Shown one piece after another: positions 11,212-33,996 of a stretch of DNA of 33,996 bases. Below the pieces are notes generated by a model. That model had not been told where the DNA came from and made no database searches. It worked only from the letters and a program-made list of their open reading frames with translations. Both the position numbers and the translations under genes were made by a program. The stretch lies in NCBI GenBank assembly GCA_025360645.1, contig JANYBT010000015.1:1-33996 (forward strand). Reading direction: 5' to 3'. The stretch comes from Acidobacteriaceae bacterium. Its GTDB lineage: Bacteria; Acidobacteriota; Terriglobia; Terriglobales; Acidobacteriaceae. Numbering within the stretch: the stretch's first letter is position 1; every line of letters begins with the position of its first letter.

Positions 11212-11216
11212 GGGCA

Positions 11217-11344: not shown

Positions 11345-11365
11345 ACAAAGAAGGGCTCCGCGCGC

Positions 11366-11734: not shown

Positions 11735-11737
11735 ACT

Positions 11738-15142: not shown

Positions 15143-15203
15143 AAAAACGGGTCGCTCTGTGGTTGGACCGAGTGCTCTTCGCTCTACGCTCTTGGCTCTT
15201 CGT

Positions 15204-17966: not shown

Positions 17967-18353
17967 ATGAGCATGAATGACTGGTCAAGATCAAGCGTAG
18001 TTTACGGACGAAAACTTTTTCATTCCGGAATGGATGGAGCTCGCGCGGGGCGGGAGTCGTTTCTGCAGGGCGAACCGATCGAACCGTATCTGAGCGAGTC
18101 ATTGCGGAATGCGGTGGTGCCGGCGGCGATTGCAGCGTTGATCGGATTTTTGGGAAGTTGTTCGGAGAGCCGGCAACGGTCGGCAGCGAAGGCGCTCGGG
18201 TATGGAGTGCTGGGCGGGGCCATCGGGTTTGGCGCAGGAATGGCGTGGGAGAGTCGTCGTCTGAGCGCGAGCGTGGCCTCTGGCGCGATGAAGAGTATCG
18301 GCAAAGTGCGCGATGAGCATTGGCTGGAAAAGAACCCGATCGACTACGCCTAG
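17967..18353 (+). CDS. small glycine-rich membrane-associated protein, unknown function
   Basis: The 128-residue product has a polar N-terminus (MSMNDWSRSSVVYGRKLFHS), a hydrophobic segment at about 48-64 (NAVVPAAIAALIGFLGS), and a second, glycine-zipper-like segment at about 77-94 (LGYGVLGGAIGFGAGMAW), then a basic tail ending EKNPIDYA. Two short helices of this kind suggest membrane insertion or association; no named family is recognised. AGGAAA lies four bases before the ATG at 17967. The frame is open back to 17880, but that start has no ribosome site. It ends 72 bases before the AdhE-type gene on the same strand and could be the first gene of the lipid operon. Confidence 0.6.
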   Translation: MSMNDWSRSSVVYGRKLFHSGMDGARAGRESFLQGEPIEPYLSESLRNAVVPAAIAALIGFLGSCSESRQRSAAKALGYGVLGGAIGFGAGMAWESRRLSASVASGAMKSIGKVRDEHWLEKNPIDYA

Positions 18354-18425
18354 AAAATAGGAAATGAGAACAGGGAATTTGGATTCGTGAATCAGGGGCC
18401 CAATGATGGGCAAGTGAGGCTGGCA

Positions 18426-21158
18426 ATGATCAGTGAAAAAATGGACGAGCGGGCGCGAACTGGGCGCGAAAAAGAAAATGGTCAATCTGGCGAGGCGCCG
18501 GCAAAACGGCAGGAGTCCAGCCGCGCCGTAACCGAGAAGGCTGCCGGCCTGAGTGCGGAAAGGATTGCGTATCTGGAGGGACTGGTGCGGCAGGCCCGGA
18601 CTGCGGCTGCCGTGTTCACGCAATACACGCAGGAGGACGTGGACCGGATCGTCAAAGCGATGGTGCTGGCGGGATTGGCAAACGCCGAACATCTGGCCCG
18701 CCTGGCGATCGAGGAAACCAAGATTGGGGTGCTGGAAGACAAGGTCATCAAGAACATGGTGGCGACGGAGTTTGTTTACAACTACGTCAAGGACAAACGA
18801 ACGGTGGGCACGATTCATGAGTATCCGGAACGCGGGATCGTGGAAGTGGCGGCACCGATCGGAGTCATCTTCTCGCTCACCCCGATTACCAACCCCACCT
18901 CTACCGTGCTCTTCAAGTGCATCATGGCCATCAAGACGCGGAACGCAGTTATTTTCAGTCCGCACCCCAGCGCTTGGCGCTGTTGCTGGGAGGCGGTGAA
19001 GATCATGGCGGAGACGGCGGTGAAGCACGGTGCGCCGGAAGGCGTTTTCACCTGTTTGGAATCGCACACCCTGGAAGACAACGCGTACGTGATGCGGCAC
19101 AAGGATGTTGGCCTGATTGACGCAACCGGTGGCCCGGGAGCGGTGAAAGCCGCCTACAGTTCCGGCAAGCCGGCATTGGGAGTTGGAGCGGGCAATACAC
19201 CGGTCTATCTGGAAAAGACCGCGGACCTGGATATGGCGGTCGTGGACATCATCGTCTCCAAGACGTTTGACAACGGAACCATCTGCGCTTCCGAGCAAAC
19301 CGTGGTGATCGACGATGAGATTTATGACTTGGTGCTGGAGAAGTTTGCCGGATTGGGAGCCCACATCTGCAGTGCGAAGGAGACCGAGCTTCTGGGTCGC
19401 ACCGTGATCGACCCCAAGACCGGGTCCATGTCGCCTATGGCGGTCGGCCAGAAGGCCACCGACATCGCCCGCATGGTGGGAATTTCGGTGAAGCCGAATA
19501 CCAAACTCCTGATTGCGCCGATTCAGGGCGTAGGTCGCGAACATCCGCTGTCAGTGGAGAAGCTGTTTCCAGTGCTCGGGGTGTATCGCGCGCGGTCTGT
19601 TGCTGAGGCGCTGAAGGTGTGCATCGACGTCAATCATTTGGGCGGCCTGGGACATACGGCGGTGATTTTCTCGCGCAACGACGACGTGATCCAAAAGTTT
19701 GGGGAGGCGATGAACGCGGGACGGATCATTGTGAATTCGCCGGGTTCCATTGGAGCGCTGGGAGGGGTTTACAACGACATGGTGCCGACGTTCTCCTTCG
19801 GATGCGGGACCGGCGGCGGCAACAGCACGATGGACAACGTCAATATTTATCACTACCTGAACATCAAGCGCCTGGCCCGGAGGACCCCACCGCAAATGTG
19901 GTTCCGCGTTCCCAATCAAATCTACTTCAACCGCAATGCGGTGGAGAATATTCGCCAGTTTCCCTCGCGCTCCACCATCATCGTCACCAATCCGTCGATG
20001 GAACAATTCGGCCATGTCGATACCGTGCGACGCTACCTTCCCGCCGGGACGCAGGTGCATGTGGAAGTGATTCCCGATGCGGAGCCCGAGGCCAAGGTGG
20101 TGATGAAGGGAGTGGAGACGCTCAATTTTTACAAGGCGGATCAGATTATCGCCCTGGGCGGCGGTTCAGTGATTGATGCGGCCAAGGTGATGCGACTGAA
20201 GTACGAATCGCCGGAGGCGGACTTGGAGGAGTTGGCGGCGCCGTTCCTGGATTTGCGCAAGCGAGTGATTCAGTTCCCCACCGTAAAGACCAATCGGGCG
20301 CGGTTGATCGCCATTGCCACGACCAGCGGCACGGGCAGCGAGGTCACGCCGTTTGCGGTGCTGTTCGACAAGGAACATGGGCGCAAAGTGACGTTGGCCG
20401 ACTACTCGCTGAGTCCCGATGTGGCGATTGTGGACCCGCAGTTCGTGATGTCAATGCCCAAGGGGCTGACCGCGGATACTGGCATCGACGCCTTGACCCA
20501 TGCCCTGGAGGCGGCGGTCTCAGTGTTCGCTTCGCCCTATACCGATGCCAACGCGCTGCAGGCCATTCCGCTGATCTTCAAATACTTGCCCATCGCCTAT
20601 GAACATCCGCGCGACGAAGCAGCGCGGACCATGATGCACAATGCCTCGTGTCTGGCGGCGATGGCGTTTTCCAACGCGGCAGTGGGAGTGAACCACGCGC
20701 TGGCGCATTCCTTTGGAGCCCGCTTCCACGTCGCCCACGGCCGGGCCAACGCACTGATGTTGCCGCACGTCATCCGCTATAACGCGTCGGTGCCGACCAA
20801 GTTCATGCCTTCCCCGAACCAGGTGGCGTACGTTGCGGACAAGAAGTATGCCGCGATGGCGGATGGGCTGGGTCTGGGCGGTAGGACCACGGAAGAGAAA
20901 GTGAACCATCTGGTGGAGGCGATCGAACAATTGCTGGATCGCCTGGCGGTGCCGCGGTCGATCGCGGAGCTGGGAATTTCCAAGGAAGAATTCGAGCGGG
21001 CGATGCCGGATTTGGTCAAGCTGGCCTTTGAAGATCCTTCCTGGCGGTCGAACCCCCGCATGCCGTTGATGAGCGAGTTGGTGGAGCTGTTCTGGAAGGC
21101 GTACGAGGGCCGAGGCGTGGCGAGCCGGGCTGGAGTTGAACCGCGATTAACGGCATAA
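18426..21158 (+). CDS. adhE: AdhE-type bifunctional acyl-CoA reductase / iron-dependent alcohol dehydrogenase
   Basis: The 910-residue two-domain enzyme reduces an acyl-CoA to the aldehyde and then the alcohol. After a charged 45-residue N-terminal extension, the CoA-acylating aldehyde dehydrogenase domain has APIGVIFSLTPITNPTSTV, GVGAGNTPVYLEKTADLD and the catalytic Cys C287 in FDNGTICASEQ. The iron alcohol dehydrogenase domain has the NAD loop ALGGGSVIDAAKVM, ATTSGTGSEVTPFAV, and metal ligands in GIDALTHALEA, NHALAHSFG and VAHGRANAL. The length is near that of E. coli AdhE (891). An in-frame GTG at 18387 would add 13 residues; the ATG at 18426 is preferred for its GAGG six bases upstream. 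In fermenters AdhE makes ethanol; beside a wax-ester synthase it may instead make longer alcohols, which is inference. Confidence 0.93.
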   Translation: MISEKMDERARTGREKENGQSGEAPAKRQESSRAVTEKAAGLSAERIAYLEGLVRQARTAAAVFTQYTQEDVDRIVKAMVLAGLANAEHLARLAIEETKIGVLEDKVIKNMVATEFVYNYVKDKRTVGTIHEYPERGIVEVAAPIGVIFSLTPITNPTSTVLFKCIMAIKTRNAVIFSPHPSAWRCCWEAVKIMAETAVKHGAPEGVFTCLESHTLEDNAYVMRHKDVGLIDATGGPGAVKAAYSSGKPALGVGAGNTPVYLEKTADLDMAVVDIIVSKTFDNGTICASEQTVVIDDEIYDLVLEKFAGLGAHICSAKETELLGRTVIDPKTGSMSPMAVGQKATDIARMVGISVKPNTKLLIAPIQGVGREHPLSVEKLFPVLGVYRARSVAEALKVCIDVNHLGGLGHTAVIFSRNDDVIQKFGEAMNAGRIIVNSPGSIGALGGVYNDMVPTFSFGCGTGGGNSTMDNVNIYHYLNIKRLARRTPPQMWFRVPNQIYFNRNAVENIRQFPSRSTIIVTNPSMEQFGHVDTVRRYLPAGTQVHVEVIPDAEPEAKVVMKGVETLNFYKADQIIALGGGSVIDAAKVMRLKYESPEADLEELAAPFLDLRKRVIQFPTVKTNRARLIAIATTSGTGSEVTPFAVLFDKEHGRKVTLADYSLSPDVAIVDPQFVMSMPKGLTADTGIDALTHALEAAVSVFASPYTDANALQAIPLIFKYLPIAYEHPRDEAARTMMHNASCLAAMAFSNAAVGVNHALAHSFGARFHVAHGRANALMLPHVIRYNASVPTKFMPSPNQVAYVADKKYAAMADGLGLGGRTTEEKVNHLVEAIEQLLDRLAVPRSIAELGISKEEFERAMPDLVKLAFEDPSWRSNPRMPLMSELVELFWKAYEGRGVASRAGVEPRLTA

Positions 21159-21174
21159 GGGAAGGGTGGTGGGT

Positions 21175-21450
21175 ATGGCGACGAGCGCAGGGTGGCAGAC
21201 AACGGACGCAGAGGTTGGGGCTCCGTCCTGGCAAGCGGCCCGGGAGAAAGTGGAACGGGCGGAGGGCGAAGTGGTTGTGGATTGTTCGGCGGTAGGCCGA
21301 ATCGATCCCAAAGCGCTCCGAGCGCTGGAGGATTTGGCCGACGTGGCGGATATCAAAGGCGTCAAGGTGGCGTTGCGGGGCGTCAGCATTGAGATGTACA
21401 AAGTGCTCAAGCTGGTGAAGCTGGGGTCGCGATTTTCCTTTCTGCCTTGA
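21175..21450 (+). CDS. STAS-domain protein lacking the usual phospho-acceptor serine
   Basis: The 91-residue protein has the fold pattern of STAS domains (anti-sigma antagonists and MlaB-like adaptors): VERAEGEVVVDCSAVGRID, then PKALRALEDLADVADIKGVK, then VALRGVSIEMYKVLKLVKLG and RFSFLP. In regulatory antagonists such as SpoIIAA the loop after the third strand reads D-S-S-G-L with a phosphorylated Ser; here it reads D-P-K-A-L, so phospho-switching by a partner kinase is unlikely. It begins 16 bases after adhE and ends 21 bases before the acyltransferase gene. An adaptor role in the lipid pathway or a lipid transporter is inference. Two GTGs just upstream (21166, 21169) are alternative starts. 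Confidence 0.75.
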   Translation: MATSAGWQTTDAEVGAPSWQAAREKVERAEGEVVVDCSAVGRIDPKALRALEDLADVADIKGVKVALRGVSIEMYKVLKLVKLGSRFSFLP

Positions 21451-21471
21451 GAAGAGAGGCGAGTGAGAGCA

Positions 21472-23082
21472 ATGAAAACAACCGACATGCCGAACCATCA
21501 GAATGGTGACCGCCTTTCCTGGGGCGACACGGTATTTCTGCATCTGGAGCGCGACGGCATGCCGCTGCACATTGCCGGGACCAGTGTGCTTGAGGGTGTG
21601 ATTTCGCTAGAGGAGTTCCGCGCCTTCATCGAGTCCAAGCTGCCGGTGCTGACCCGGTATCGCCAGCGCGTGGAGGCGGCTCCCTTCAATCTCTGTCCTC
21701 CGACCTGGGAATACGATCCTGAGTTTGACCTCCGCAACCACGTTTCCGAGATCACGCTCAAGCGGGGAACGGATACAGAATTCAAGGCGGTGGTGGGAAA
21801 GCTTCTGAGCAAAACCATGGACCGGACGCGGCCGCTCTGGGACTTTACGCTGGTGAGCGGATTGAAAGGCAACCACACTGGCCTTATTTTTCGCGTGCAT
21901 CACTGCCTGGCCGACGGAATTGCGGCGGTGGGAGCGATGAACGTGATCATGACTGCGACGCCCGAGGTGCAGCCCCTTCCCAAGCCAACCCGAAGAGCCG
22001 CTGCGCCCCCTCCGAAAGACCCGTTGACTTCGCTGTTCGACAGCTTGATCGGTGCTTATTCAAACTTGGTGCAACGGGCTTTGGCCGCACAGTCAGACTT
22101 GCTGGATTTCACGGAGCGGATGGCGGCCGGAGGGGGAGAATTGCCGACTGCGGAGTTTGCCCGGTTGCTTCCGGAACTCACCGCTCCCACCGCAGACCTG
22201 TGCTTCAACGTGAACTGCCAAGGACCGCTGAAGGTGGCATGGGTCGAGCTGCCTCTGGAGGACTTGAAAGACATTCGCAAGGCATGCGGAACCACGGTGA
22301 ATGATGTGCTGCTGGCACTGGTGACTTCGACCATTCAGCGCTATGTAGAACTGCGCGGAGACTCAATCAAGGGCCGGCTGTTCCGCATGATGGTTCCGGT
22401 GAATACACGGGGCGCGGATAGCCCGGACGAACTGGGAAACCGTATCTCTCTGGTCCCGGTGACAGTGCCGCTCGACATTCGCAATCCGCGGAAGCTTTTG
22501 GCCGCGGTGCATGAGAGAACGGAGTTCCTGAAACGCGGACACGTTGCCGAGTTGGTGAGCCTGGCGGGCGGGTTGGTATCGTTCGTCGCGACCCCGCTGC
22601 AGGCGATGGCGGGGCCGATCGCCGGCCAGCTCCCGATTACTCCCTTCAACCTGGTGTGCACCAGCGTGCCTGGACCGCAATTTTCGCTGTATCTGCTGGG
22701 TCACAAGATGCTGCGCTGGTATCCCTATGTGCCGATTGGCGGGCGGATGGCGCTGAACTGCGCCATTCTGACCTACAACGGCACCACGTATTTTGGATTC
22801 AGCGGCGACGTGCATGCTGCGCCAGACCTGCAGAAATTGGAAGGGCTGTTGAAATTGAGCTTTGAAGAATTGAAAAAAGCCGCTGGCGTGCAGGCGCCGC
22901 GAAAGAAAGCCGCGCGGTCGAAAGCAAAAGCGGCGCCGGTGGTGAGGATCGCGCCGGCAAAGACTCTGCGCCCGACTGCTCCCACTCAGGTGCGGCTGAA
23001 AGTTGTCCAAAAGGCAGAGTCGGAGCGAGTGCAAGAGCCGACAGTAGAGCAAGGGAATTTGCCAGAGCAGCTCATCGCTTGA
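21472..23082 (+). CDS. WS/DGAT-family acyltransferase (wax ester synthase / diacylglycerol acyltransferase)
   Basis: The 536-residue enzyme transfers an acyl group from acyl-CoA to a long-chain alcohol (wax ester) or a diacylglycerol. The catalytic motif HHxxxDG is present as HHCLADG at residues 143-149. Other family strings are LSWGDTVFLHLERDGMPLHI at the start, DRTRPLWDFTLVSGL before the motif, GTTVNDVLLALVTSTIQRY, and NLVCTSVPGPQFSLYLLGHK near the C-terminus. From about 470 a Lys/Ala/Pro-rich, probably disordered tail of some 65 residues follows (PRKKAARSKAKAAPVVRI), not part of the canonical domain. The ATG at 21472 is weakly preceded by GAGAG; GTG 21463 is an alternative start. It sits in the operon after adhE and STAS, so alcohol and ester formation are genetically linked. 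Confidence 0.92.
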   Translation: MKTTDMPNHQNGDRLSWGDTVFLHLERDGMPLHIAGTSVLEGVISLEEFRAFIESKLPVLTRYRQRVEAAPFNLCPPTWEYDPEFDLRNHVSEITLKRGTDTEFKAVVGKLLSKTMDRTRPLWDFTLVSGLKGNHTGLIFRVHHCLADGIAAVGAMNVIMTATPEVQPLPKPTRRAAAPPPKDPLTSLFDSLIGAYSNLVQRALAAQSDLLDFTERMAAGGGELPTAEFARLLPELTAPTADLCFNVNCQGPLKVAWVELPLEDLKDIRKACGTTVNDVLLALVTSTIQRYVELRGDSIKGRLFRMMVPVNTRGADSPDELGNRISLVPVTVPLDIRNPRKLLAAVHERTEFLKRGHVAELVSLAGGLVSFVATPLQAMAGPIAGQLPITPFNLVCTSVPGPQFSLYLLGHKMLRWYPYVPIGGRMALNCAILTYNGTTYFGFSGDVHAAPDLQKLEGLLKLSFEELKKAAGVQAPRKKAARSKAKAAPVVRIAPAKTLRPTAPTQVRLKVVQKAESERVQEPTVEQGNLPEQLIA

Positions 23083-23120
23083 CGATTGGAACGGAAATTT
23101 GTTCCTGGAGAGGCAATACG

Positions 23121-23213
23121 GTGGAAGTAACAGCGGTTCGCGTTCTACGAAATGGCGGAACCAAGCTTGAGATCGCACTCAGGTCCAATTCCTTCGGAGA
23201 TGGCGAGGCATGA
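23121..23213 (+). CDS. possible 30-residue peptide, translationally coupled to the next gene
   Basis: In the only sizeable gap of the operon, a GTG at 23121 is preceded by GGAGAGG with seven-base spacing. The frame runs 30 codons (starting MEVTAVRVLRNGGTKLEIAL) to a TGA at 23211-23213 that overlaps the ATG of the Fe-S oxidoreductase gene (ATGA). The ribosome site and the four-base overlap are what one expects of a translated leader or small protein. There is no homology signal that I can recognise, and a chance ORF of this length is possible. Confidence 0.4.
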   Translation: MEVTAVRVLRNGGTKLEIALRSNSFGDGEA

Positions 23214-25348
23214 TGGTGCGTTCCATTCTGGAACCGGCACAAGCGAACTACTGGCTGATGCAGGGGCAAACCCTGTTCCTGATCCTGCACATTCTGGGTG
23301 TCGCCTGTTTTTCCTACATTGTGGCGAAGCGGATGACCCCGCTGCTGCGGGGCCAGACGGATGCTCGCTGGGATCGGCCCTGGACCCGTCTGGGAATGGT
23401 TGGGAAATTCTGGCTGGGGCAATGGAAGCAACCGCGTTATCGTGGCGCGGGGACGCTTCATCTTTTGATTTTTGCCGGCTTCCTTTTACTGGCGACCCGC
23501 GCTTTCACAGTGCTCATTCAGGGCGTCTCGGTGAATTTCGTCATGCCGGGCCTGTCGGGAGAAGCGGGGCATGTTTACGGCATCATCACGGACTACGCCG
23601 CGACCGCGGTCTTTCTTTGCATGGTAATCGCCATGATTCGCCGGCTGGTCTTCCGGCCCGCGCGCTATGAGGTGCCACCCCAGTACGGCCAGGCCCGCAC
23701 TGCGGATGCCATCTTCCTATTAGCGCTGATTGCGGTCTTGATGGCGGCCGACGGCTTGCTGGAAGCCAGCAAGGCGGCATTCCAGACACAGCAAGGGCAG
23801 CCGGCGGAATTTCTAGCCGTCCTGTCGCTGGCGTGGATGTTGAAGGGCGCCCTGCTGTCCACTTCCTTGCCGCTGCTGCAGAATCTCCACCTCGGCTCTT
23901 ACGTTCTGCATGAAGTGACATTCTTCTTTTTGCTGTGCTATCGGCCCTTTGGGATTCAGTTTCATGTGGAAACGTCGCTGTTTTCGGTGTACTTCGCGAA
24001 GCTGGACCGAGGAACCCTCAAGCCGGTTCGCTGGGGCGTGAGCGAGGAACATTTGGATGAAGTGAAATCCTTTGGAGTCAAGAAGTTCGAGGACTTCACC
24101 TGGAAGCACATGCTGGACTTTTATTCCTGCGCCGACTGCGGGCGATGCTCGGACAACTGCCCGGCCAATGCGGTGGGAAGGCCATTGTCGCCGAGGTTTC
24201 TCACTCGAAAGGCAAGAGAATACAGTTTCCAGCACTACCCCGTGCTAGGCCGCGCCGACCAGGGGCCGAACTTGATCGGCAGCATTTATTCCGAAGATGA
24301 AATCTGGTCGTGCACCACTTGTGGAGCGTGCGAGGAAGAGTGCCCGCTGCTGATCGAATACATCGACAAGATTGTGGACTTGCGGCGCGGCATGATCGAC
24401 GACGGGAACGTGCCGCAATCGCTGCAAAAGCCCCTGAAAGCGCTCGAGAGCCGTGGCAATGCCTACGGCAAGATGGAGAAGAAAAGGGCGGACTGGGTCA
24501 AACCGAAAGAGTTTCAACTTGCCTGCAACGTCCCGGTGCTGGAGGGCGAGCAGCGCGCCGACACTTTGTATTTCGTGGACAGCATCACCTCCTACGACGA
24601 CCGCATGCAGGCAATCGGGCGGGCCACCGCGAAGATCCTCGACCACATCGGAGAGAATTTCGGAATTCTGGGTGCGGCAGAAAAAGATAGCGGGCATGAA
24701 GTACGGCGGTTCGGCGAAGAGACTCTGTTCCAGTCCTTGCGAGACCACAACGTGGAGGCCATTCAAGCCACTGGAGTCAAGCGGATCGTCACTTCGGACC
24801 CGCACGCCTACAACGCGCTGAAACACGACTACAAAAATATGCCGCAGGTGGAGCACATCAGTCAGGTGATTGCCCGCGAAGTGAAGTCCGGCAAGATCCA
24901 GTTCCGACCGGTGGAGGACAAAAACAACGTTTACACCTACCACGATCCCTGCTATTTGGGGCGGCACAACCAGATCTATGACGATCCGCGCGATGTGCTC
25001 GATGCGATCCCGGGCTTGAAGAGAGTCGAGATGGATCGTTCTCGAGACCGGTCTTTCTGTTGCGGAGGCGGCGGGCTGATGCTGTTCTACGAACCCAAAG
25101 AAGATCAACGAATGGGCGTGAAGCGGGTGCAGATGGCGGCGGAGGCTGGAGCCAATGTGCTGGTCACTGCCTGCCCCTTCTGCATGGTGAATATGGAAGA
25201 CGCGATCAAGGTCGCGGGCCTGGAAGGAAAAATGACCGCCATTGATTTAGCGGAATTGGCGGAGCAACAACTGGTGCGGAAAGCTCCGGCTGCTGTGGAA
25301 GCGGCGGAAGTTGCCGGAATGCAACCAGAATTCGCCGCAGGGAGATGA
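23210..25348 (+). CDS. membrane Fe-S oxidoreductase, EtfAB:menaquinone-oxidoreductase (EMO)-type, HdrD-like
   Basis: The 712-residue protein joins a NarI-like membrane part (about 1-260; several helices with His residues able to hold haem b, e.g. LILHILG, LHEVTFFFLL) to a cytoplasmic Fe-S part. Two ferredoxin-type motifs are seen: CADCGRCSDNCP at 307-317 and CTTCGACEEECP at 368-379. The C-terminal CCG domain is complete (C581, C617-C618, C655, C658), the noncubane cluster motif of heterodisulfide-reductase-type proteins. The preceding CCG repeat has lost all its cysteines (S458, D493-S494, D530, A533). Known relatives carry electrons from EtfAB to menaquinone. Its ATGA overlap with etfB strongly supports that role here. 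ATG 23213 is an alternative start. Confidence 0.88.
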   Translation: MMVRSILEPAQANYWLMQGQTLFLILHILGVACFSYIVAKRMTPLLRGQTDARWDRPWTRLGMVGKFWLGQWKQPRYRGAGTLHLLIFAGFLLLATRAFTVLIQGVSVNFVMPGLSGEAGHVYGIITDYAATAVFLCMVIAMIRRLVFRPARYEVPPQYGQARTADAIFLLALIAVLMAADGLLEASKAAFQTQQGQPAEFLAVLSLAWMLKGALLSTSLPLLQNLHLGSYVLHEVTFFFLLCYRPFGIQFHVETSLFSVYFAKLDRGTLKPVRWGVSEEHLDEVKSFGVKKFEDFTWKHMLDFYSCADCGRCSDNCPANAVGRPLSPRFLTRKAREYSFQHYPVLGRADQGPNLIGSIYSEDEIWSCTTCGACEEECPLLIEYIDKIVDLRRGMIDDGNVPQSLQKPLKALESRGNAYGKMEKKRADWVKPKEFQLACNVPVLEGEQRADTLYFVDSITSYDDRMQAIGRATAKILDHIGENFGILGAAEKDSGHEVRRFGEETLFQSLRDHNVEAIQATGVKRIVTSDPHAYNALKHDYKNMPQVEHISQVIAREVKSGKIQFRPVEDKNNVYTYHDPCYLGRHNQIYDDPRDVLDAIPGLKRVEMDRSRDRSFCCGGGGLMLFYEPKEDQRMGVKRVQMAAEAGANVLVTACPFCMVNMEDAIKVAGLEGKMTAIDLAELAEQQLVRKAPAAVEAAEVAGMQPEFAAGR

Positions 25349-26142
25349 CCGTGGAAATGTTAGTGTGCGTCAGAAGAGTGCCTGACACTTCGGAAAACGA
25401 GATTGCCCTGAACCGTGAGGGCAACGACATTGAGCGGGACGACCTGGTCTATTCCATCAATGAATGGGACAACTACGCAGTGGAAGAGGCGCTGCAGATG
25501 GTCGCAAAAGCCGGCGGCAACGTCACGGTGGTGACGGTGGGCGGTGACGACGACGAGGAAATCCTGCGGCGGGAGATGGCCATGGGCGCAAACCATGGAG
25601 TCCTGCTCTGCGATGAAGCGTTCGACGGATCCGACGGAAAGGGCATCGCCACCATTCTGAAAGCATTCGTGCAGAAGGGTCATTACGACCTGATCTTGAC
25701 CGGAGTCCAGGCGGAGGACGGAGGGGCGCAGGTGGGAGGGATGCTGGCCGCCATGCTGGACTATCCGTTTGCCTCGCTGGTGAATTCCATTGAAGTGCGG
25801 GATGGCAAGACGCTGAAGATCGGACGGGAAATCGAAGGCGGCAACAAAGAGATGAATGAGATTGATCTGCCCTGTGTGCTCTCGATTCAGACCGGCATCA
25901 ACGAACCGCGTTATGTCGGGATGCGGGGCATCCGGCAAGTGGCCTCGCTGCCGGTTCCCACTTACGGTGCTGCGGAGCTGGGAGTGGAGGCGGGCGCGGT
26001 CGGAGCATCTGGCGCGAAAGTGAAGCGGGTGGATTATTTTGCACCTGCGTTAGGCAAGGGCGCGCGCATGCTCGAAGGCAGCCAGGAAGAAATCATCGAC
26101 GAATTGTTGGAATTAGTGAAAGCCAAAGGAGGGTTGAAATAA
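25345..26142 (+). CDS. etfB: electron transfer flavoprotein beta subunit (ETF system 2)
   Basis: The 265-residue beta subunit begins MTVEMLVCVRRVPDTSENEI, has the NEWDNYAVEEALQMV segment, and the signature region LPCVLSIQTGINEPRYVGMR with GIRQVASLPVPTYG. It overlaps the end of the EMO-type gene by four bases and the start of etfA by one, so the three subunits are translated together. It is clearly a different paralogue from the EtfB at 9380. A GTG at 25351 and an ATG at 25357 are alternative starts, closer in register to typical EtfB N-termini (M-L-V-C-V). Its probable partners are the acyl-CoA dehydrogenase downstream as electron donor and the membrane protein upstream as acceptor. Confidence 0.94.
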   Translation: MTVEMLVCVRRVPDTSENEIALNREGNDIERDDLVYSINEWDNYAVEEALQMVAKAGGNVTVVTVGGDDDEEILRREMAMGANHGVLLCDEAFDGSDGKGIATILKAFVQKGHYDLILTGVQAEDGGAQVGGMLAAMLDYPFASLVNSIEVRDGKTLKIGREIEGGNKEMNEIDLPCVLSIQTGINEPRYVGMRGIRQVASLPVPTYGAAELGVEAGAVGASGAKVKRVDYFAPALGKGARMLEGSQEEIIDELLELVKAKGGLK

Positions 26143-27128
26143 TGGCCCGCATCTTCGCATTCATCGAGCACAAGTCTGGTGTAGTGAGTGACACGGCCGG
26201 CGAATTGTTGGCCGCCGCGAAAAAAATCGATCCCAGCGCCACGCCGACCGCCATCGTTGCCGGTTCGGGGCCTGAGCTGGAAGCGGCATGCCAGAGCCTC
26301 TGCGCTTCTTTCCATGAGGTCTGGAAGATTGCCAGTGAAGCGCTTGCCTACCCCAATGCGGAACTCATTCGGAAAGCGTTGGTCGGAGTGTTGCCGCAGG
26401 GCAGCATCGTGTTGGCGGCCCATAACCATTTTGGAATCGATCTGGCGCCGGGTTTGTCCATCAAGCTCAATGCCGCCTTCGTTTCCGACGTGGTGAGCAT
26501 TGAGGGACTGGAGGGGACGTGGTTGAAAGTGGTGCGGCAGGAATTCGGCGGACAGGTGAGCGCGCACATGCGCTGCGACCTTTCGCCGGGTGCAGTGATC
26601 GGCGTTCGTCCCGGTGCTTTCCACGCTCTGGAGAATGTCACTTCCAGCGGACAAGTAGTGGACAAGTCTTCGGACGCCGGCACGCTGACGGCAAGTCGGC
26701 GTTACGTGGAGACGGTGGTAGCCGAAGCGGGTGCAGTGGACATCACCAAGCACGACGTGCTGGTTTCCATCGGCCGTGGCATTCAGGAGCAGGAGAATGT
26801 AGCGATCGCTCAGGAATTGGCCGATGTCATGGGAGCGGCGGTGAGCTGTTCGCGGCCTGTGGTGGACGCCAAGTGGATGGAGAAGTCGCGCCAGGTGGGG
26901 ACATCGGGCAAAACCGTGAAGCCGAAAGTGTACCTGGCGTGCGGCATCAGCGGCGCCTTCCAGCATCTGGCCGGAGTGCAAGGGAACGCCTTCCTGGTGG
27001 CCATCAACAAGAACCCCAAGGCGCCAATTTTCCAAGTGGCGGATGTTGGCATTGTCGCCGATCTGCTGGAGTTTTTACCGGAATTAACCAACAAAATCCG
27101 TGAAATGCAAAGCGTTTCCGTGAAATAG
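26142..27128 (+). CDS. etfA: electron transfer flavoprotein alpha subunit (ETF system 2)
   Basis: The 328-residue alpha subunit starts [20 protein letters not shown] at an ATG sharing one base with the etfB stop (TAATG). The C-terminal FAD domain shows [60 protein letters not shown] and [20 protein letters not shown]. The N-terminal half differs substantially from EtfA of system 1, whereas the FAD-binding signature is conserved, as expected of paralogues serving different partners. The acyl-CoA dehydrogenase gene starts 11 bases after its stop, completing a donor-ETF-quinone reductase set. Confidence 0.94.
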
Positions 27129-27139
27129 AGGCTATACAC

Positions 27140-28816
27140 ATGATCACCCAGAAGACTCTGAAACTCAGTCTGAAATCACTTCGCGACTTCGCCAAGAAGC
27201 GCCTGCCCGACGAAACTCTGATCGAACTGGATGCCCGCGATGAATGCCCGCTGGAGATCGTGCGTCACATGTGCGACCCCGACCAGCTAGGGATTCAACT
27301 GCTGTTTATTCCCGAAGAGTTCGGCGGCATGGGCGGAGGCGCCTTCGATGTGTATTGCATCTGCGAAGAAATGGCGCGCATCGATCTGGGCGTGGCCACC
27401 GCGGTGCTGGCTACGTTTCTGGGCAGCGATCCCATTACGGTGGGGGCCACTCAAGAGCAGAAGAAAATCTGGTTGACTCGCATTGCCGAAGAGGGAATTC
27501 TGTTCGCCTACGGGGCCACCGAACCGGAGGCAGGCAGCGACCTGGGCGCACTTCGCACCGTCGCCGAGCCGGTCATGCAGGATGGCCGCGTCACCGGCTA
27601 CAAGATCACCGGGAACAAGCAATGGATCAGCAATGGCGGGATTGCGGATGCTTACACCGTCCTGGCCAGCACACCCGCCGGGCCCAGTTGGTTCATCGTG
27701 GAGAAGGGTGCAAAGGGGTTCAGCCACGATAAGCCCGAGGACAAACACGGGATTCGGCTCAGCAACACGGCTGCCCTCGCATTCGACAACGTCTATGTGG
27801 ACGCGGACCGCCTCATTGGCGGGGTAGAAGGCCAGGGACTCAATCAGGCGCAGGCGGTGTTTGGTTACACCCGGCTGATGGTGGCGGCGTTTGGGCTGGG
27901 AGCGGGTTGGGCCGCGCTGGATCGCGCCATCCCCTATTCCACCAAGCGCATCCAGGCCGGAGCGCCCCTCTCCGAGAAGCAGGGATACACCCATAAGCTG
28001 ATTGTGCCGCACGTGGCCCACCTGGAAGCGTCTCGCGCCTTTATCGAAGAAACCGCGGAGCGAATTGATGCGGGCGAAGGCAGCTTGAACACCGAGGGAG
28101 CCATCGCCAAATACATGGCCACCGAGGCCGGAAATCTGGCTGCCGACGCCAGCATCCAGGCGCTGGGAGGCTACGGTTACACCCACGAGTACATGGTGGA
28201 GAAGATCAGCCGAGACGTTCGCATCACCACTATCTACGAAGGCACCTCGGAAATCATGGAGATGACTATCAGCCGCGACCGCTGGCAGTATCACCTGAAG
28301 ACGCGTGGACAGTACTACCACGAGCAAGCGCGCCAGATGGAAGCGCTGCACGCCCAGCATGCGGACGTGGGTGCGAATGTCGCGGCTCTGGCTCTGCACG
28401 CTTTGGCGGTAATCATGGAAAAAGCGCGGCTGGCCCGTCTGACCCGCTATCAACACATTCTGCTGCGGCTGGGAGAGTGGATCGCGTTCGTCGAGTCCGC
28501 GGCATGCCTGGCGCGGCGGGCGGCGCGGTTGGCGGAAGGACGTCTGCACGAAAAAGCGAGCGGGCGTTTCGACGCGGCCGCACTGGCGGCGCTGAGCCGC
28601 ATCTTCGCCAGAGAAGCTGCGCACAAAGTGGCCGAAGAAGGTCTGCGCTGGATTACGGGAGCCGGTGGCGTGAGCGACGCGGAGCTGCCCGGGTTCGAAG
28701 CCAGCGTCGGAATCGCTACCATTCATCGAGCCCAGGCCGGAATGATTGCCGACATGGACTATGTCGCCGACGTGATTTACAACCGCGTGGCGAAACAAGT
28801 GCGGCCGGCCGCCTAG
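27140..28816 (+). CDS. acyl-CoA dehydrogenase with C-terminal extension
   Basis: The 558-residue flavoenzyme introduces a 2,3-double bond into an acyl thioester and hands electrons to ETF. Family strings are [37 protein letters not shown] (substrate/FAD loop), [13 protein letters not shown], and [20 protein letters not shown]. The catalytic base is Glu 367 in [10 protein letters not shown]. The canonical enzyme ends near residue 385; here about 175 more residues, Ala/Arg-rich and helical, follow, as in longer acyl-CoA dehydrogenases with an extra helical domain. The first 45 residues are also divergent. It lies between etfA2 and the megasynthase gene, so its substrate may be an acyl chain produced or processed in this pathway rather than a general fatty acid; that is inference. 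Confidence 0.92.
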
Positions 28817-28885
28817 AGTTAGTTGGGCCGGCGCCCGGCGGTCCGGGAGCCGGTGGCCTTTTTAGAGAGAAGCAGGAGAGTCATT

Positions 28886-31800
28886 ATGGAAGATACCGCG
28901 TATCGAGCGATTGCGATTGTAGGAGCGGGAGCGGTTCTGCCCGACGCTGCGAACGTTACGGCGTTCTGGGAAAACGTAAAGCATGGCCGTTACAGCATTA
29001 GCGAAGTTACACCCGACCGTTGGAATCCAGATTATTACTACGATGCCGACCACAGTGCCCCGGACAAGACCTATTCCAAGATCGGCGGCTGGGTGCGCGA
29101 GCATGAGTGGAACCCGATCAAGTGGCGAATGCCGATTCCGCCGCGCGTCGCCGATGCCATGGATGGCACGCAAAAATGGGCGATGGCATGCACCCGGGAA
29201 GCGTTGGAGGATTACGGCTACCCCAAACGTCCGCTCAACCTGGATCGCACCGCGGTGATTCTGGGCAACGCCATGGCCGGGGAAAAGCATTACCTTTCGG
29301 CGCTGCGGGTATATTTTCCGGAATACGCTCACGAATTGGAAGAGAGCCCCAGTTTCGCTGTGTTGCCGGAGTCGATGCGGCACGACATCACCCGCGAATT
29401 GCATCAGCGAATGTCGAATCGCCTTTCGGAGATCACGGAAGACAGCATGCCCGGCGAACTTGCCAACTGCATCGCCGGCCGCATCGCCAACGTTTTCAAC
29501 TTCCACGGACCCAATTATGTGGTGGATGCGGCCTGCGCGTCGGCGATGGCTGCCATGAGCGCCGCCATCGAGGGATTGGTGGTAAGGGATTTCGACGTGG
29601 CGGTCACGGGCGGGGTTGACCGCAACATGGGCGCGCCCACTTTTGTGAAGTTCTGCAAGATTGGAGCGCTCTCCGCGACCGGAACCCGGCCCTATGCCGA
29701 AGGGGCGGACGGCTTTGTGATGGGCGAAGGCTCGGCGATCTTTGTGCTGAAGCGTCTGGCGGATGCGGAAAGAGATGACGACAAGATCTATGCCGTACTG
29801 CGTGGCATCGGCGGGGCCAGCGACGGCAGAGGAAAAGGAATCACTGCGCCCAATCCGGTGGGCCAGATATTGGCCATCGAGCGAGGCTGGAAAAATGCCG
29901 GGGTATCGCCCGATAGCGGCACCTTGTTTGAAGGTCACGGCACTTCGACCCGGGTGGGCGACGTGGTGGAAGTGCAGAGTATGGCGCACGTGCTTGACGG
30001 TTTTCATCTGCCGCATGCTTCGGTGGCGCTGGGCTCAGTCAAGTCCAACATCGGGCATCTGAAAGGGGCTGCCGGTGCGGCGGGGCTGCTGAAAGCCGCC
30101 CTCGCCCTGCGGGACAAAGTGCTGCCGCCGAGCGTGCATTGCGAGCACCGCAATCCAGATATCGATTTTGATCATTCCCCGCTCTACGTCAACACCACGC
30201 TGCAACCCTGGACGGTTCCGGAGGGGGGCACGCGGCGGGCCGGCTTGAGTGCCTTTGGCTTTGGCGGGACCAACTTCCACGCGGTAATTGAGGAATACAT
30301 TCCTCACAAACTGACCGGCAATGGCAAGCGTTCGGTCGCGGTCGGCGAAATGCCGAGCCCTGGAGAGGACCACGGCACCATGATTTCCTTAAGCAGTTCC
30401 AAGACTAATTACGATGCATCCACTTTGAAGGCGCCATTGCGCGGCGCATTGGTGATGGGCGCTGGTTCTGCCTCGGCACTGGCCGAGCGACTGCGTACTG
30501 CACGGAAGGCGGCCGAGGCGGGTCAAGCGGCGGCGCCATGCGCACCGGCGGAGTCAGACCTGCGCGCTCCCGAACGCGTGGCCATCGATTATGCGGACGC
30601 CGCCGATCTGAGCGCCAAATTGGCTAATGCGGTGAAGGCGCTGGCCGCCGACCAGGCGCCAGTTTGGAAAGCTCTGCGTGCGCAAGGCATTTTCCGCGGA
30701 CACGGCCCCGCGGCCAAGGTGGCATTCCTCTACACCGGTCAAGGATCGCAGTACGTGAACATGCTGCGTCCCCTTTACACCGCCGAACCGATCGTATCCA
30801 GAATCTTTGCGGAAGCGGACCTGGTGATGACGCCATTGATCGGCAAGCCGCTCACCGAGTTTGTTTTTGTGGACGGGACAGATCCAAAAGCCGTCGCACA
30901 AGCTGACGAAGATCTGCGCCAGACCGCCATTACGCAGCCCGCGGTTCTGGCCATCGATTGGTCTCTTACTCAACTATTGGCGGCCTATGGCATCCAGCCG
31001 GATCTGACCATGGGACACAGTCTGGGTGAATACGGAGCGCTGGTGGCGGTCGGCGCGCTTACCTTTGAGAACGCATTGATCGCGGTCAGCGCTCGCGGCC
31101 GTGGCATGACCAACGTGGCGGTGGAAGACACCGGCAAGATGGCGGCAGTGTTTGCCCCCATGGACGAAATCGAACGAATTTTGAAGTCGGTCAATGGCTA
31201 TGTGGTGATTGCGAACTTCAACAGCGACCACCAGGCGGTGATCGGAGGGGCCAGCAAAGCGGTGGAGCAGGCCATTGAAATTTTCAAGCAAGCGGGCTAT
31301 GAACCGGTGGAGCTCCCGGTCAGCCATGCTTTCCATACCTCGATTGTGGCGCCGGCCAGCGGGCCTCTGCGGTTGGAATTGGAGCGCCTGCATCTGCAGT
31401 CGCCGCGCCTGCCGATCGTGGCCAACGTGGATGGTGAATTTTATCCGATGGGGCCGAACGCGGTGCCCCAGATGTTAGACCTGCTTTCGCGCCAAGTTGC
31501 GTCGCCCGTGCAATTCGTCAAGGGCTTGCGAACTCTCTACGATGCCGGCGCCCGCATCTTCGTGGAAGTGGGGCCCAAGAAGGCGCTGCAAGGATTTGCG
31601 GAAGATGTGCTGGGTAGCCATGGCGACGTGCTCTCGCTATTCACCAATCATCCGAAGGTCGGCGATACTGTGGCCTTCAATCAGGCACTGTGCGGTCTGT
31701 ATGCGGCGGGTCTGGGCCGCGGACACGCCGACGCAACACGGGAAGCGCCGGCGTTTGCGGTTTCCAAACCCATCCTCAGCCCGAAGCCAATGGCCCCGGC

Positions 31801-33996
31801 CCCAATGACACCGGCCTCATTGCCACCGGCAGTGACGAAGTTCTCCTCTGCTGCAACCCGACCAGCGGCTCCGTTGAACGGAGATCGCTACGCCGCGCTC
31901 GGCCATTTGTTCTCCGATTTTTTCGACCAGAGTATGCACATGTACCAGGGCGGGACCGTCGCCACGATGGCTCCGCCGGTGGTGACGGGCGCCGCTTTGG
32001 GCCTGCCTGGGACCGACCACATTTTCGACGACAGCAACGTGGGCCGCATCCTGCGGGGCGATCAGTTTATCGATGTGATCCCGACCCGCTTTCGCAAAGC
32101 CATGCTCGACAAACACATCACACGACTGGTAAAGAACGAGCACGGGGGACCGACGTTTGAGACCATTCACCGTCAAGAGGACGTCATCAAGCTGGCGGCC
32201 CGCGGGGGTGCGTTTGATCTGGAGAAAGAATTTGGCGTATCCGCTGATCGTCTGTCTGCCCTCGACCGGGGGACCCAGTTGGCGATGGCGGCGGGCCTGG
32301 ACGCGTTGCGGGATGCGGGCATCCCCCTGGTTTTGAGCTACAAGACCACCAGCATCGGCACGCAGTTACCGGACCGCTGGAGATTGCCGGATGATATGCG
32401 CGACGATACCGGCGTGATTTTTGGTTCCGCCTTCCCCGGATTTGACTCGTTCGCGAACGAGATGTCGCGCTACTACGCGGACCATGCCCGGCGGGAGCAG
32501 TTGGCGCAAATGGAGAGCGTACGCGCCCGTGGGGCCGAATCGAACGGACACTCCGCCCTGGGGCAAGAGCTGGACCGGCGGATCGCAGATTTGCGCGCCG
32601 CCATCGAGAAAGATCCGTACGTCTTCGACCGGCGCTTCCTGTTTAAAACGCTGGCGATGGGACATTCGCAATTCGCCGAATTTATCGGAGCGCGAGGCCC
32701 CAACACGCAAATCAATTCCGCGTGCGCGACCACCACACAGGCCTTGACTCTGGCCGAGGACTGGATCCGCGCAGGCCGATGCCGCCGCGTGATTATCATA
32801 ACCGCCGACGACGTCACTTCCGACAGTATGCTGGAGTGGATTGGCGCCGGCTTCCTGGCCAGCGGAGCAGCGGCCACCGACGAAGTCGTCGAGGATGCCG
32901 CCATTCCGTTTGACCGTCGCCGCCACGGCATGATCATCGGCATGGGCGCGGCCGCACTGGTGGTGGAAAGCGTCGACGCGGCGCGAGAACGAGGGATTCA
33001 GCCCATCTGCGAAGTGTTGAGTTCGGTGACGGCCAATAGCGCTTTCCACGGCAGCCGCCTCGATGTGCAGCACATTGGTCAAGTGATGGAGACGCTGATC
33101 GCCCAAGCGGAAACGCGCAGCGGCATTTCACGGCAACAGATTGCGCCAGAAACCGTTTTCGTTTCCCACGAAACCTATACTCCGGCGCGGGGCGGAAGCG
33201 CCTCGGCGGAGATTTATGCGCTGCGTCGCGTTTTTGGCGACGACGCCGATCGCATCGTGATCGCTAACACCAAGGGCTTCACCGGGCACGCGATGGCCAC
33301 CGGCATCGAGGATGTGGTTGCGGTCAAAGCGCTGGAGACCGGCTGCGTCCCGCCAGTCGCCAACTTCAAGGAAGTGGATCCGGAGTTGGGTCCGCTGAAC
33401 CTGTCGAAAGGCGGCGCTTATCCCGTCGAATATGCGTTGCACCTGGGGGCAGGCTTTGGTTCCCAGATCAGCATGACGTTGTTGCATCGAGTGATGACGA
33501 AAAACGGCGTTCGGCCCAGTCCGAACGCTCTGGGCTATGCCACGCGCATCGCGGATACGAATGTCTGGAATGCATGGCTAAGCCGGATGGCAGGTCGTCC
33601 AGTCACTACACTGGAAGTCATCCACCGCACTTTACGTGTGCCCGATCAAGGGATGCCGGCGCGGGTTGTCGAAGTCGCGAAGGATTTCCGGCCAGTGCTA
33701 GTTCCCACCATTCAGGCAACGCTGCCGCCACCGGTTCTGGTGGAGGTGGCGAAATCAAGCGCGACAGTTCCACTCGCCCCGCTTCCGCTCGCTCCGATTC
33801 CATTCGTTGCACCGCCGAAGACAGTTGCGGGCGATCCGGTGAAAGCGAGAGTGCTGGCTTTGGTGGCGGAAAAGACCGGATATCCGGTGGACATGCTTGA
33901 TCTGGACTTGGATCTGGAAGCGGATTTAGGAGTCGATACTGTCAAACAAGCGGAGGTCATGGCGACCATTCGCGAGGCGTATGGCATTGCGCGCGA
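28886..33996 (+). CDS. type I PKS / PUFA-synthase-like megasynthase, KS-AT-KS-ACP (runs off right edge)
   Basis: The frame is open for 1703 codons from ATG 28886 (AGGAGAG five bases upstream) to the window end. The first ketosynthase (about 5-470) has C217 in DAACASAM, H351 in EGHGTST and H391 in KSNIGHLKGAAG. The acyltransferase (about 610-925) has GQGSQ, nucleophile S712 in GHSLGEYG and HAFH at 814-817, a malonyl-type motif. A second, divergent ketosynthase (about 1040-1535) keeps C1280 in INSACATTTQ, H1428 in SHETYTP, K1463 and H1468 in TKGFTGHAM. After a Pro/Ala linker an acyl carrier domain begins (about 1650 on) with LEADLGVDTVKQAE, where Thr 1685 stands at the usual phosphopantetheine-Ser position. 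The layout resembles secondary-lipid and heterocyst-glycolipid synthases more than modular antibiotic PKSs. Reductive domains, if any, lie beyond the edge. Confidence 0.92.
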   Translation, partial: MEDTAYRAIAIVGAGAVLPDAANVTAFWENVKHGRYSISEVTPDRWNPDYYYDADHSAPDKTYSKIGGWVREHEWNPIKWRMPIPPRVADAMDGTQKWAMACTREALEDYGYPKRPLNLDRTAVILGNAMAGEKHYLSALRVYFPEYAHELEESPSFAVLPESMRHDITRELHQRMSNRLSEITEDSMPGELANCIAGRIANVFNFHGPNYVVDAACASAMAAMSAAIEGLVVRDFDVAVTGGVDRNMGAPTFVKFCKIGALSATGTRPYAEGADGFVMGEGSAIFVLKRLADAERDDDKIYAVLRGIGGASDGRGKGITAPNPVGQILAIERGWKNAGVSPDSGTLFEGHGTSTRVGDVVEVQSMAHVLDGFHLPHASVALGSVKSNIGHLKGAAGAAGLLKAALALRDKVLPPSVHCEHRNPDIDFDHSPLYVNTTLQPWTVPEGGTRRAGLSAFGFGGTNFHAVIEEYIPHKLTGNGKRSVAVGEMPSPGEDHGTMISLSSSKTNYDASTLKAPLRGALVMGAGSASALAERLRTARKAAEAGQAAAPCAPAESDLRAPERVAIDYADAADLSAKLANAVKALAADQAPVWKALRAQGIFRGHGPAAKVAFLYTGQGSQYVNMLRPLYTAEPIVSRIFAEADLVMTPLIGKPLTEFVFVDGTDPKAVAQADEDLRQTAITQPAVLAIDWSLTQLLAAYGIQPDLTMGHSLGEYGALVAVGALTFENALIAVSARGRGMTNVAVEDTGKMAAVFAPMDEIERILKSVNGYVVIANFNSDHQAVIGGASKAVEQAIEIFKQAGYEPVELPVSHAFHTSIVAPASGPLRLELERLHLQSPRLPIVANVDGEFYPMGPNAVPQMLDLLSRQVASPVQFVKGLRTLYDAGARIFVEVGPKKALQGFAEDVLGSHGDVLSLFTNHPKVGDTVAFNQALCGLYAAGLGRGHADATREAPAFAVSKPILSPKPMAPAPMTPASLPPAVTKFSSAATRPAAPLNGDRYAALGHLFSDFFDQSMHMYQGGTVATMAPPVVTGAALGLPGTDHIFDDSNVGRILRGDQFIDVIPTRFRKAMLDKHITRLVKNEHGGPTFETIHRQEDVIKLAARGGAFDLEKEFGVSADRLSALDRGTQLAMAAGLDALRDAGIPLVLSYKTTSIGTQLPDRWRLPDDMRDDTGVIFGSAFPGFDSFANEMSRYYADHARREQLAQMESVRARGAESNGHSALGQELDRRIADLRAAIEKDPYVFDRRFLFKTLAMGHSQFAEFIGARGPNTQINSACATTTQALTLAEDWIRAGRCRRVIIITADDVTSDSMLEWIGAGFLASGAAATDEVVEDAAIPFDRRRHGMIIGMGAAALVVESVDAARERGIQPICEVLSSVTANSAFHGSRLDVQHIGQVMETLIAQAETRSGISRQQIAPETVFVSHETYTPARGGSASAEIYALRRVFGDDADRIVIANTKGFTGHAMATGIEDVVAVKALETGCVPPVANFKEVDPELGPLNLSKGGAYPVEYALHLGAGFGSQISMTLLHRVMTKNGVRPSPNALGYATRIADTNVWNAWLSRMAGRPVTTLEVIHRTLRVPDQGMPARVVEVAKDFRPVLVPTIQATLPPPVLVEVAKSSATVPLAPLPLAPIPFVAPPKTVAGDPVKARVLALVAEKTGYPVDMLDLDLDLEADLGVDTVKQAEVMATIREAYGIAR

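Follow-up and report, generated by a model that had tools for sequence, protein, structure and literature searches.

Judged by its domain content, the operon described here is that of a Type R secondary-lipid synthase (an iterative type I enzyme, fatty-acid/polyketide-like) with its own malonyl-CoA supply. An acyl-CoA dehydrogenase (ACAD) encoded directly upstream of the synthase, together with EtfBA and an EMO-like protein (ETF:menaquinone oxidoreductase type), probably serves it as an enoyl reductase in trans, and an ester-forming tail is optional. The operon lies in the window, the whole stretch of 33996 bases that was analysed, which is one entire contig.

All the operon genes are on the + strand, and their families were assigned with Pfam and NCBIfam profiles. 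In order, they encode a small conserved protein (17967-18353; 128 aa, C-terminus ...HWLEKNPIDYA), the bifunctional CoA-acylating aldehyde dehydrogenase/Fe-alcohol dehydrogenase AdhE (18387-21158), a stand-alone STAS-domain protein of 91 aa (21175-21450; PF13466, PF01740), a WS/DGAT wax ester/diacylglycerol acyltransferase (21472-23082), the EMO-like membrane Fe-S/CCG protein (23210-25348; PF02754 CCG, Fer4), EtfB2 (ETF beta, 25345-26142; PF01012), EtfA2 (ETF alpha, 26142-27128; PF00766, PF01012), the ACAD (27140-28816; PF00441/02770/02771) and the 5' part of the synthase (28886-33996, with its ATG at 28886). Every gene and family named in the original prediction was confirmed by Pfam and NCBIfam, and its spacings also hold on re-measurement: overlaps of 4 and 1 bases and gaps of 16, 21, 11, 69 and 127 bases. 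The promoter/terminator scan gave counts not above those of shuffled sequence.

Within the window, the synthase comprises KS1 with a C-terminal extension (28904-30319, converted from Pfam ranges to nucleotides), an AT domain with the motif GHSLGE (30725-31615, Pfam), KS2 with Cys-His-His (32183-33742, an approximate range that served as query) and the first ACP (33848-33988, Pfam), the contig end falling inside the ACP repeat. The synthase runs on into C45, another contig of this genome, which shares an exact overlap of 141 bases with the window; this rightward extension adds two ACPs, KR and DH, followed by a one-chain acetyl-CoA carboxylase. The synthase joined from the two contigs is KS-AT-KS-ACP3-KR-DH, of 2860 aa, and thus has the Type R order KS-MAT-(KS/CLF)-ACP(3-6)-KR in a single protein, with DH in addition. 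The carboxylase (C45:3649-9222) is a single open frame aligning to carboxylase residues 1-1854 of 1863, and that of the relative L128 has BC, BCCP, ACC_central and CT in one chain. A PPTase is found downstream in 32 of the 34 bacterial loci having at least 6.5 kb of downstream DNA; C45 was covered as far as base 5083. Against the PfaA profile TIGR02813 (cut-off 1010.1 bits), full-length L128 scores 1015 bits and the partial synthase of the window 637.6 bits.

The second KS, read as a chain-length factor in the 2011 paper on these synthases, has its cysteine in all 82 aligned sequences and both histidines in every sequence with residues there (81 of 82). This conserved Cys-His-His speaks against the chain-length factor reading, and in sequence KS2 looks like an active KS.

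Among full bacterial synthases, the domain scan found KR and DH (PF21089) in 12 of 12 and an NMO/FabK-type or zinc-type reductase domain in none of the 12. Since KR and DH are present but an enoyl reductase (ER) domain is not, the rounds in cis would stop at a trans-2-enoyl thioester, and the missing step would therefore be a reduction. A FabK-type and a FabI-type sequence, one of each, used as queries against the synthases and neighbourhoods of 61 bacterial loci, gave a single weak match (29.3 bits, in L236), the coverage being incomplete in that 14 of the 61 loci have less than 1 kb downstream and 18 of the 61 synthase frames are shorter than 2700 aa. By Pfam the L236 match is an SDR, for which keto- and enoyl-reductase are both possible.

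What does accompany the synthase is the ACAD. After removal of duplicates there were 61 bacterial loci, the window included, and in 58 of them it lies directly upstream on the same strand; the 58 include loci from records titled Acidobacteria, Actinomycetes, Myxococcales, Calditrichaeota, Caldilineales and Bacteroidota. The three loci without it, scored as misses, are L235, an odd chimeric frame (SpoU-KS-AT-KS-ABC) from a genome 74% complete, L236, with only 1.4 kb of upstream DNA, and L237, with three KS domains. The related-locus search kept the best 80 of 82, and 42 of 79 loci were followed, the others being mostly short. The counts leave out L225, L229 and L232 (to judge by length, the contigs of G083, G090 and G098), L238 and L215 (lacking KS1-AT), and L208, L209, L212, L216 and L218 (shorter copies of other rows).

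Of the 51 ACAD-bearing loci whose upstream DNA extends to 4.5 kb or more, 33 have EMO-EtfB-EtfA immediately before the ACAD, and all 33 are acidobacterial, by title or by kinship. EMO-ETF does not adjoin in the other 18, which include G352, of the window's family, and members of other acidobacterial families. Across the compared loci the operon has three layers: a core of ACAD and synthase, usually with carboxylase and PPTase downstream; EMO-EtfBA; and an optional AdhE-STAS-WS/DGAT. The identical gene order recurs in other genomes, which rules out a chance gene neighbourhood. The original prediction was to fail if synthase homologues normally occurred without the other genes; except in a subset of loci they do lack AdhE and WS/DGAT, and in part EMO-ETF, but not the ACAD.

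In the synthase tree, which omits L217, L235, L237, L239, G062, G075 and frames shorter than 700 aa, the ACAD state arose once. The mutual exclusion of ER and ACAD therefore represents few events, and it coincides with the division between bacteria and archaea: what is contrasted goes back to a single event that has been strongly retained. Its archaeal side is seen in the Asgard homologues. Synthase matches occur in 42 of 227 Asgard genomes, 13 of the 42 being left out of the inspection of 28 loci. Of these loci, 23 have a fused FabK-type reductase and two an adjacent FabI-like gene, with three unclassified. No ACAD adjoins in any of the 23 loci with at least 1 kb of upstream DNA, all of which have a carboxyltransferase gene upstream. 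Asgard synthases with carboxylase genes and, mostly, a fused ER bear on whether these archaea make fatty acyl chains; among the matches listed from the open-licence literature, which is weak evidence, there was no report of an Asgard fatty-acid megasynthase. The genome analysed here has a FabI-type gene of its own, on C71, with 43% identity to its Asgard counterpart; its product could work in trans, a counterpoint to the assignment of enoyl reduction to the ACAD.

The proteins of the proposed electron route have the expected features. All three ACAD domains are present, E367 is invariant in 20 aligned sequences, and the YEGT motif, whose glutamate we take to be the catalytic base, is found in 56 of 58 ACADs, the remaining two being short or split frames. 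In the EMO-like protein the Cys clusters, H84 and H252 are invariant across 15 aligned sequences, these two being the only invariant histidines of the membrane part, a pattern that does not confirm two haems b, and it matches PDB 9ojn with 276.6 bits. It has the [4Fe-4S] motifs, CCG domain and adjoining EtfBA genes of an EMO, together with an N-terminal membrane part whose helices were judged from sequence and a low-confidence AlphaFold2 model (mean pLDDT 60), too poor for a fold search. The solved ETFs closest to EtfBA are mixed as to bifurcation. A close EMO (at least 57% identity) occurs in exactly five of 61 genomes (its own and 60 relatives), the same five that hold the synthase; EMO matches in seven other genomes reach at most 37% identity. 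Because another ETF is present in the window along with a canonical ETF-QO, encoded separately at 9380-13867 on the + strand (EtfB1 9380-10150, EtfA1 10219-11211, ETF-QO 12128-13867), EMO-ETF2 need not serve ordinary beta-oxidation. Regarding menaquinone genes, the genome has two PF02621 (VitK2_biosynth) matches, and MenD was looked for there and not found.

In the proposed scheme, the KS, AT, KS2, ACPs, KR and DH of the synthase would leave a trans-2-enoyl thioester in each round. Electrons would pass from menaquinol through EMO and ETF to the ACAD and so to the enoyl thioester, yielding a saturated, or selectively saturated, chain. The potential of menaquinone makes the opposite process, oxidation of acyl-CoA by menaquinone, uphill. 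ACADs normally oxidise. To our knowledge, no earlier megasynthase of the fatty-acid type draws on the quinone pool for enoyl reduction, as opposed to cis enzymes using NAD(P)H or FMNH2. Similarly, among the matches listed from a search of open-licence literature (again weak evidence), none reported a polyketide or fatty-acid synthase served by an ACAD. If the scheme is true, soil acidobacteria tie their lipid synthesis to the respiratory chain, with a possible electron sink. More tentatively, the whole could be a lipid or wax-ester fermentation, in which menaquinol would reduce every enoyl via EMO-ETF-ACAD and AdhE and WS/DGAT would sink further reductant, making acyl synthesis a form of anaerobic respiration; we regard this as possible and somewhat doubtful.

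The original prediction had the ACAD working oxidatively. On that reading it acts on the finished chain, with electrons passing through EtfBA and EMO to menaquinone and with AdhE and WS/DGAT esterifying the product. As a rival reading it is completed here by FabI of FAS II, which would carry out the enoyl reduction in trans. Oxidation is the usual direction of ACADs, the genome does have the FabI-type gene, and EMO carries electrons from ETF to methylmenaquinone during syntrophic growth, as described in PMC8805022. Nevertheless, the DH of the synthase already forms a 2-enoyl, which would make a second enoyl-forming enzyme redundant, and menaquinone would have to oxidise acyl-CoA (around -10 mV, PMC8805022) uphill. 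The lack of an ER in 12 of 12 synthases, and of an adjoining ACAD in those Asgard relatives that have an enoyl reductase of their own, also speak against the oxidative role, and we consider it unlikely. A polyene or polyunsaturated product, with the ACAD acting in one round or on a starter, for example a branched one, would fit the missing cis ER and the likeness to PfaA, L128 narrowly exceeding the cut-off of that profile. It appears distinctly unlikely, the FabK-/FabI-type reductase with the Asgard homologues suggesting a general enoyl reduction.

It is very improbable, finally, that the locus is a loose lipid island in which a catabolic ACAD-ETF-EMO is incidental to the synthase. AdhE, WS/DGAT and a cholesterol-oxidase-like gene do come and go, as such an island might lead one to expect, but the genes are tight or overlapping, the ACAD keeps its place across several phyla and a close EMO is restricted to synthase holders. 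The prediction of a single lipid pathway, with ACAD-ETF-EMO tied to the synthase, is supported by that adjacency (58/61) and by the presence of a close EMO in five of five synthase genomes of the 61.

The inclusion of AdhE and WS/DGAT in a self-contained pathway fares less well. Both are good family members: AdhE scores 1151.8 bits against NF010378 (cut-off 951) and TICASEQ is present in all 13 AdhE sequences compared, the window's included, and WS/DGAT scores 341.9 bits against TIGR02946 (cut-off 309.95) with HHCLADG as its HHxxxDG motif. However, of the 29 loci that have EMO and 9.5 kb of DNA upstream, just 12 show the complete AdhE-STAS-WS/DGAT order, so that AdhE and WS/DGAT form an optional tail; that an alcohol and an ester are made is plausible, but this step is not core. 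The STAS gene is present in 14 of the 29, and a homologue of the 128-aa protein, itself without a Pfam or NCBIfam match, lies somewhere within the DNA fetched for 22. Where present, AdhE and WS/DGAT might convert acyl thioester to alcohol and then ester, perhaps a wax or storage ester; this tail would be available in the present genome and in around 40% of EMO-bearing loci with enough upstream DNA.

Among known systems, the closest in architecture are the Type R synthases of Koribacter, Solibacter, Elusimicrobium and Roseiflexus (Shulse & Allen 2011, PMC3098273). They share the single chain KS-MAT-second KS-ACP(3-6)-KR followed by a PPTase, with the Koribacter carboxylase gene between synthase and PPTase. 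In its section 7, the survey differs in naming the second KS a chain-length factor, where the triad is intact here, and in giving no DH for this type, and its main text has no occurrence of 'dehydrogenase', 'flavoprotein' or 'wax'. It gives the product as not known. PfaABCD likewise has KS-AT-tandem ACP-KR, whereas here no FabK/PfaD-like reductase was found in the loci and two intact-triad KS domains and DH share one chain. For the electron route, the nearest parallel is enoyl-CoA respiration in Syntrophus aciditrophicus, where electrons pass from 8-methylmenaquinol through EMO, ETF and ACAD to an enoyl thioester (PMC8805022); there crotonyl-CoA is reduced in catabolism, unlike the de novo synthase and proposed ACP substrate here. 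In the Euglena wax-ester fermentation (Nakazawa 2018, cited in PMC6334954), ACD1, ETF and rhodoquinone are proposed to reduce enoyls and the chains become wax esters. PMC6334954 also points out that within beta-oxidation the ACAD reaction is regarded as irreversible, and silencing of ACD1 still leaves about 60% of wax esters. The Euglena route is a mitochondrial reverse beta-oxidation using no malonyl-CoA, in contrast to a malonyl-CoA-type synthase with an EMO-type protein. The carboxylase, lastly, as scanned in L128, has the one-chain BC-BCCP-ACC_central-CT layout of SACE_4237 (PMC6491548), but is here found inside a lipid synthase operon, in Acidobacteriota and other phyla.

The window, an entire contig of 33996 bases from a genome of 3.8 Mb and 158 contigs, carries on its + strand from 17967 a small conserved protein, AdhE, STAS, WS/DGAT, an ETF:menaquinone oxidoreductase-type membrane protein (EMO), EtfB, EtfA, an acyl-CoA dehydrogenase (ACAD) and the 5′ part of the megasynthase. 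Domain and family profile matches bear out the gene families of the original prediction, and the same overlaps and gaps between genes were found. The first gene of this run (17967-18353, + strand) encodes 128 residues with no family match and the C-terminal end HWLEKNPIDYA; among 29 EMO-bearing loci, 22 have a homologue somewhere in the DNA retrieved. For the synthase, ATG 28886 is the most likely start, in preference to TTG 28823. The − strand at 568-8279 bears DnaK, DnaJ, MerR-type regulator, amino-acid permease and histone-deacetylase-like genes.

The window edge cuts the synthase within an ACP. Querying this genome with the C-terminal region of a relative's synthase retrieved a second contig, C45, whose first 141 bases are the last 141 of the window; the proposed rightward extension supplies the rest of the synthase and a carboxylase. 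Joined across both contigs, the synthase is one open frame of 2860 residues with KR, DH and three ACPs, the latter being the assembled number since the ACP repeat may be collapsed. Next, by position, comes a one-chain acetyl-CoA carboxylase (C45:3649-9222, with C45 read to base 5083). Such eukaryote-type carboxylases, another of which lies at 9030-14621 of the relative's locus L128, are already described from actinobacteria in excerpts of PMC6491548 and are seen here more widely, in Acidobacteriota as well as other phyla. In the relative G027 the carboxylase is followed by a PPTase and then by a cholesterol-oxidase-like GMC protein (NF058674, 870.7 bits, cut-off 850); at the end of the L128 operon (15198-17045) lies such a gene, above the cut-off.

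Full synthase matches were present in five (G000, G004, G025, G027 and G031) of 61 genomes, namely the window's own and 60 relatives, and matches at E <= 1e-60 in 24 of 396 sampled genomes of the phylum, with up to three candidates scored per genome. A scan of public genomes left 79 loci, most of which bear the title Acidobacteria or Terriglobia; Actinomycetes, Myxococcales, Calditrichaeota, Caldilineales, Bacteroidota, Heimdallarchaeota and others also appear, although titles of metagenome-assembled genomes may be wrong. One record, the 11.85 Mb NZ_LT559118.1 of Nonomuraea gerenzanensis, is labelled a plasmid and is probably a chromosome. Neighbourhoods were annotated for 61 deduplicated bacterial loci, including the window. 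ACAD lies directly upstream of the synthase on the same strand in 58, and EMO, EtfB and EtfA lie upstream of ACAD in 33 of the 51 loci having ACAD and at least 4.5 kb of upstream DNA. EMO is also upstream in G078, where less than 4.5 kb is available. Among loci with 6.5 kb downstream, 28 of 34 have the one-chain carboxylase and 32 of 34 a PPTase.

By domain content, the bacterial synthase has every activity of the fatty-acid cycle except enoyl reduction. Pfam scans of 12 full-length bacterial synthases, drawn from different groups, show KS, AT, ACP, KR and DH in every one (PF21089 in all 12, PF14765 in 11) but in none a reductase domain of the FabK/NMO or zinc type; the PF13561 match, as seen in the L128 synthase, falls within the KR region. 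When every open frame of the 61 loci was searched with one FabK-type and one FabI-type sequence, a single weak match (29.3 bits) came up, to an SDR in L236, one of three bacterial loci lacking ACAD. On these grounds, and by the Asgard comparison below, ACAD is probably the enoyl reductase of the bacterial synthase. The oxidative role originally predicted for it appears unlikely, given a synthase without enoyl reductase and an uphill menaquinone-driven oxidation. The L236 gene (202-1077; PF13561 209 bits, adh_short 171) is weakly FabI-like, lies upstream of a synthase that is acidobacterial but divergent, and may represent a second replacement of the reductase. In L235, from a genome 74% complete, a single open frame (4008-9596) fuses SpoU methylase, KS-AT-KS and an ABC transporter domain, and is possibly a misassembly.

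Asgard genomes offer a comparison, 42 of 227 having a synthase match. Among 28 loci inspected, 23 have an N-terminally fused reductase, best matched in the two tested by FabK (TIGR03151, 131.7 and 107.3 bits, below the cut-off of 453.1), and in two more a FabI-like gene directly follows the synthase (top scores 240.3 and 244.2 bits, both under the cut-off); the other three were left unclassed since the sequence ends or the frame is broken. Upstream DNA of 1 kb or more is present for 23 of the 28, the remaining five having none; in all 23 a carboxyltransferase gene is found there, and in no case does ACAD adjoin the synthase. A biotin carboxylase gene often adjoins too, and a PPTase domain ends the three chains scanned with Pfam (L124, L242, L257). 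One synthase with three unrelated enoyl-reducing solutions is the pattern of non-homologous replacement. A caution is that in a KS1-AT tree the ACAD loci form one clade (55 rows, one change, support 100) and, the contrast being between bacteria and archaea, this is a single switch kept across phyla, not repeated independent ones. The correlation of ACAD and KS1-AT identities (Spearman 0.90 for 55 loci, with non-independent pairs) indicates shared descent, nothing beyond. The archaeal type I fatty-acid-like synthase merits separate study.

The genome has two matches to PF02621 (VitK2_biosynth), a family of the futalosine-route type, and none to MenD. Menaquinol lies at about −75 mV. With the acyl/enoyl couple at about −10 mV, as excerpts of PMC8805022 have it, reduction by menaquinol is downhill and oxidation uphill. 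EMO transfers electrons between ETF and (methyl)menaquinone. The same excerpts, on the authors' experiments, propose that 8-methylmenaquinol drives enoyl-CoA reduction in Syntrophus through EMO, ETF and ACAD. Enoyl-reducing electrons thus probably come from menaquinol, and would pass through EMO, ETF and ACAD to the enoyl thioester of the synthase. The window has a second ETF set (EtfB1, EtfA1 and canonical ETF-QO, 9380-13867), which gives ordinary beta-oxidation a separate route; a 23S rRNA-intervening-sequence-type protein gene (PF05635, 11366-11734) sits between EtfA1 and ETF-QO. Across the 61 genomes, close EMO homologues (57-77% identity to the window's protein) are confined to four synthase-bearing relatives besides the window's genome, those in seven others being distant (37% identity at most). 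Against the menaquinol route, no EMO-ETF lies beside the synthase and ACAD of G352, a member of the window's family. The same arrangement is seen in several further acidobacterial families and at all loci with coverage from outside the acidobacteria; there the donor would be general ETF or something else.

The original prediction of a self-contained lipid pathway stands in part. The constancy of ACAD favours one pathway, but AdhE and WS/DGAT are not core: of the 29 EMO-bearing loci for which 9.5 kb of preceding DNA is available, 12 have AdhE-STAS-WS/DGAT upstream in the window's strand orientation. Anywhere in the fetched DNA, these 29 have AdhE in 13, STAS in 14, WS/DGAT in 17 and cholesterol-oxidase-type GMC genes in 13, a lower bound because downstream coverage varies, some directly beside WS/DGAT. 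Where present, this optional layer would make fatty alcohols, then wax or storage esters, with an AdhE that is NADH-linked and CoA-dependent by family and whose action on long chains is putative. It resembles wax-ester fermentation in Euglena, a process in which enoyl-CoA is reportedly reduced by ACD1, ETF and rhodoquinone (PMC6334954, citing Nakazawa 2018), the share of that route being still open according to excerpts of that paper.

Overall, comparison confirms the observation and partly supports its original interpretation, with direction, substrate and product predicted from sequence. Architecture, carboxylase and the PPTase of the relatives match those of the Type R synthases of Shulse & Allen 2011 (PMC3098273), which already names acidobacterial members and leaves their product open. 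Relative to its main text, the new elements are the constancy of ACAD, the layer of EMO and ETF genes, the DH, a second KS whose triad is intact (Cys in 82 of 82, each His in 81 of 82, with one gap) and the Asgard counterparts.
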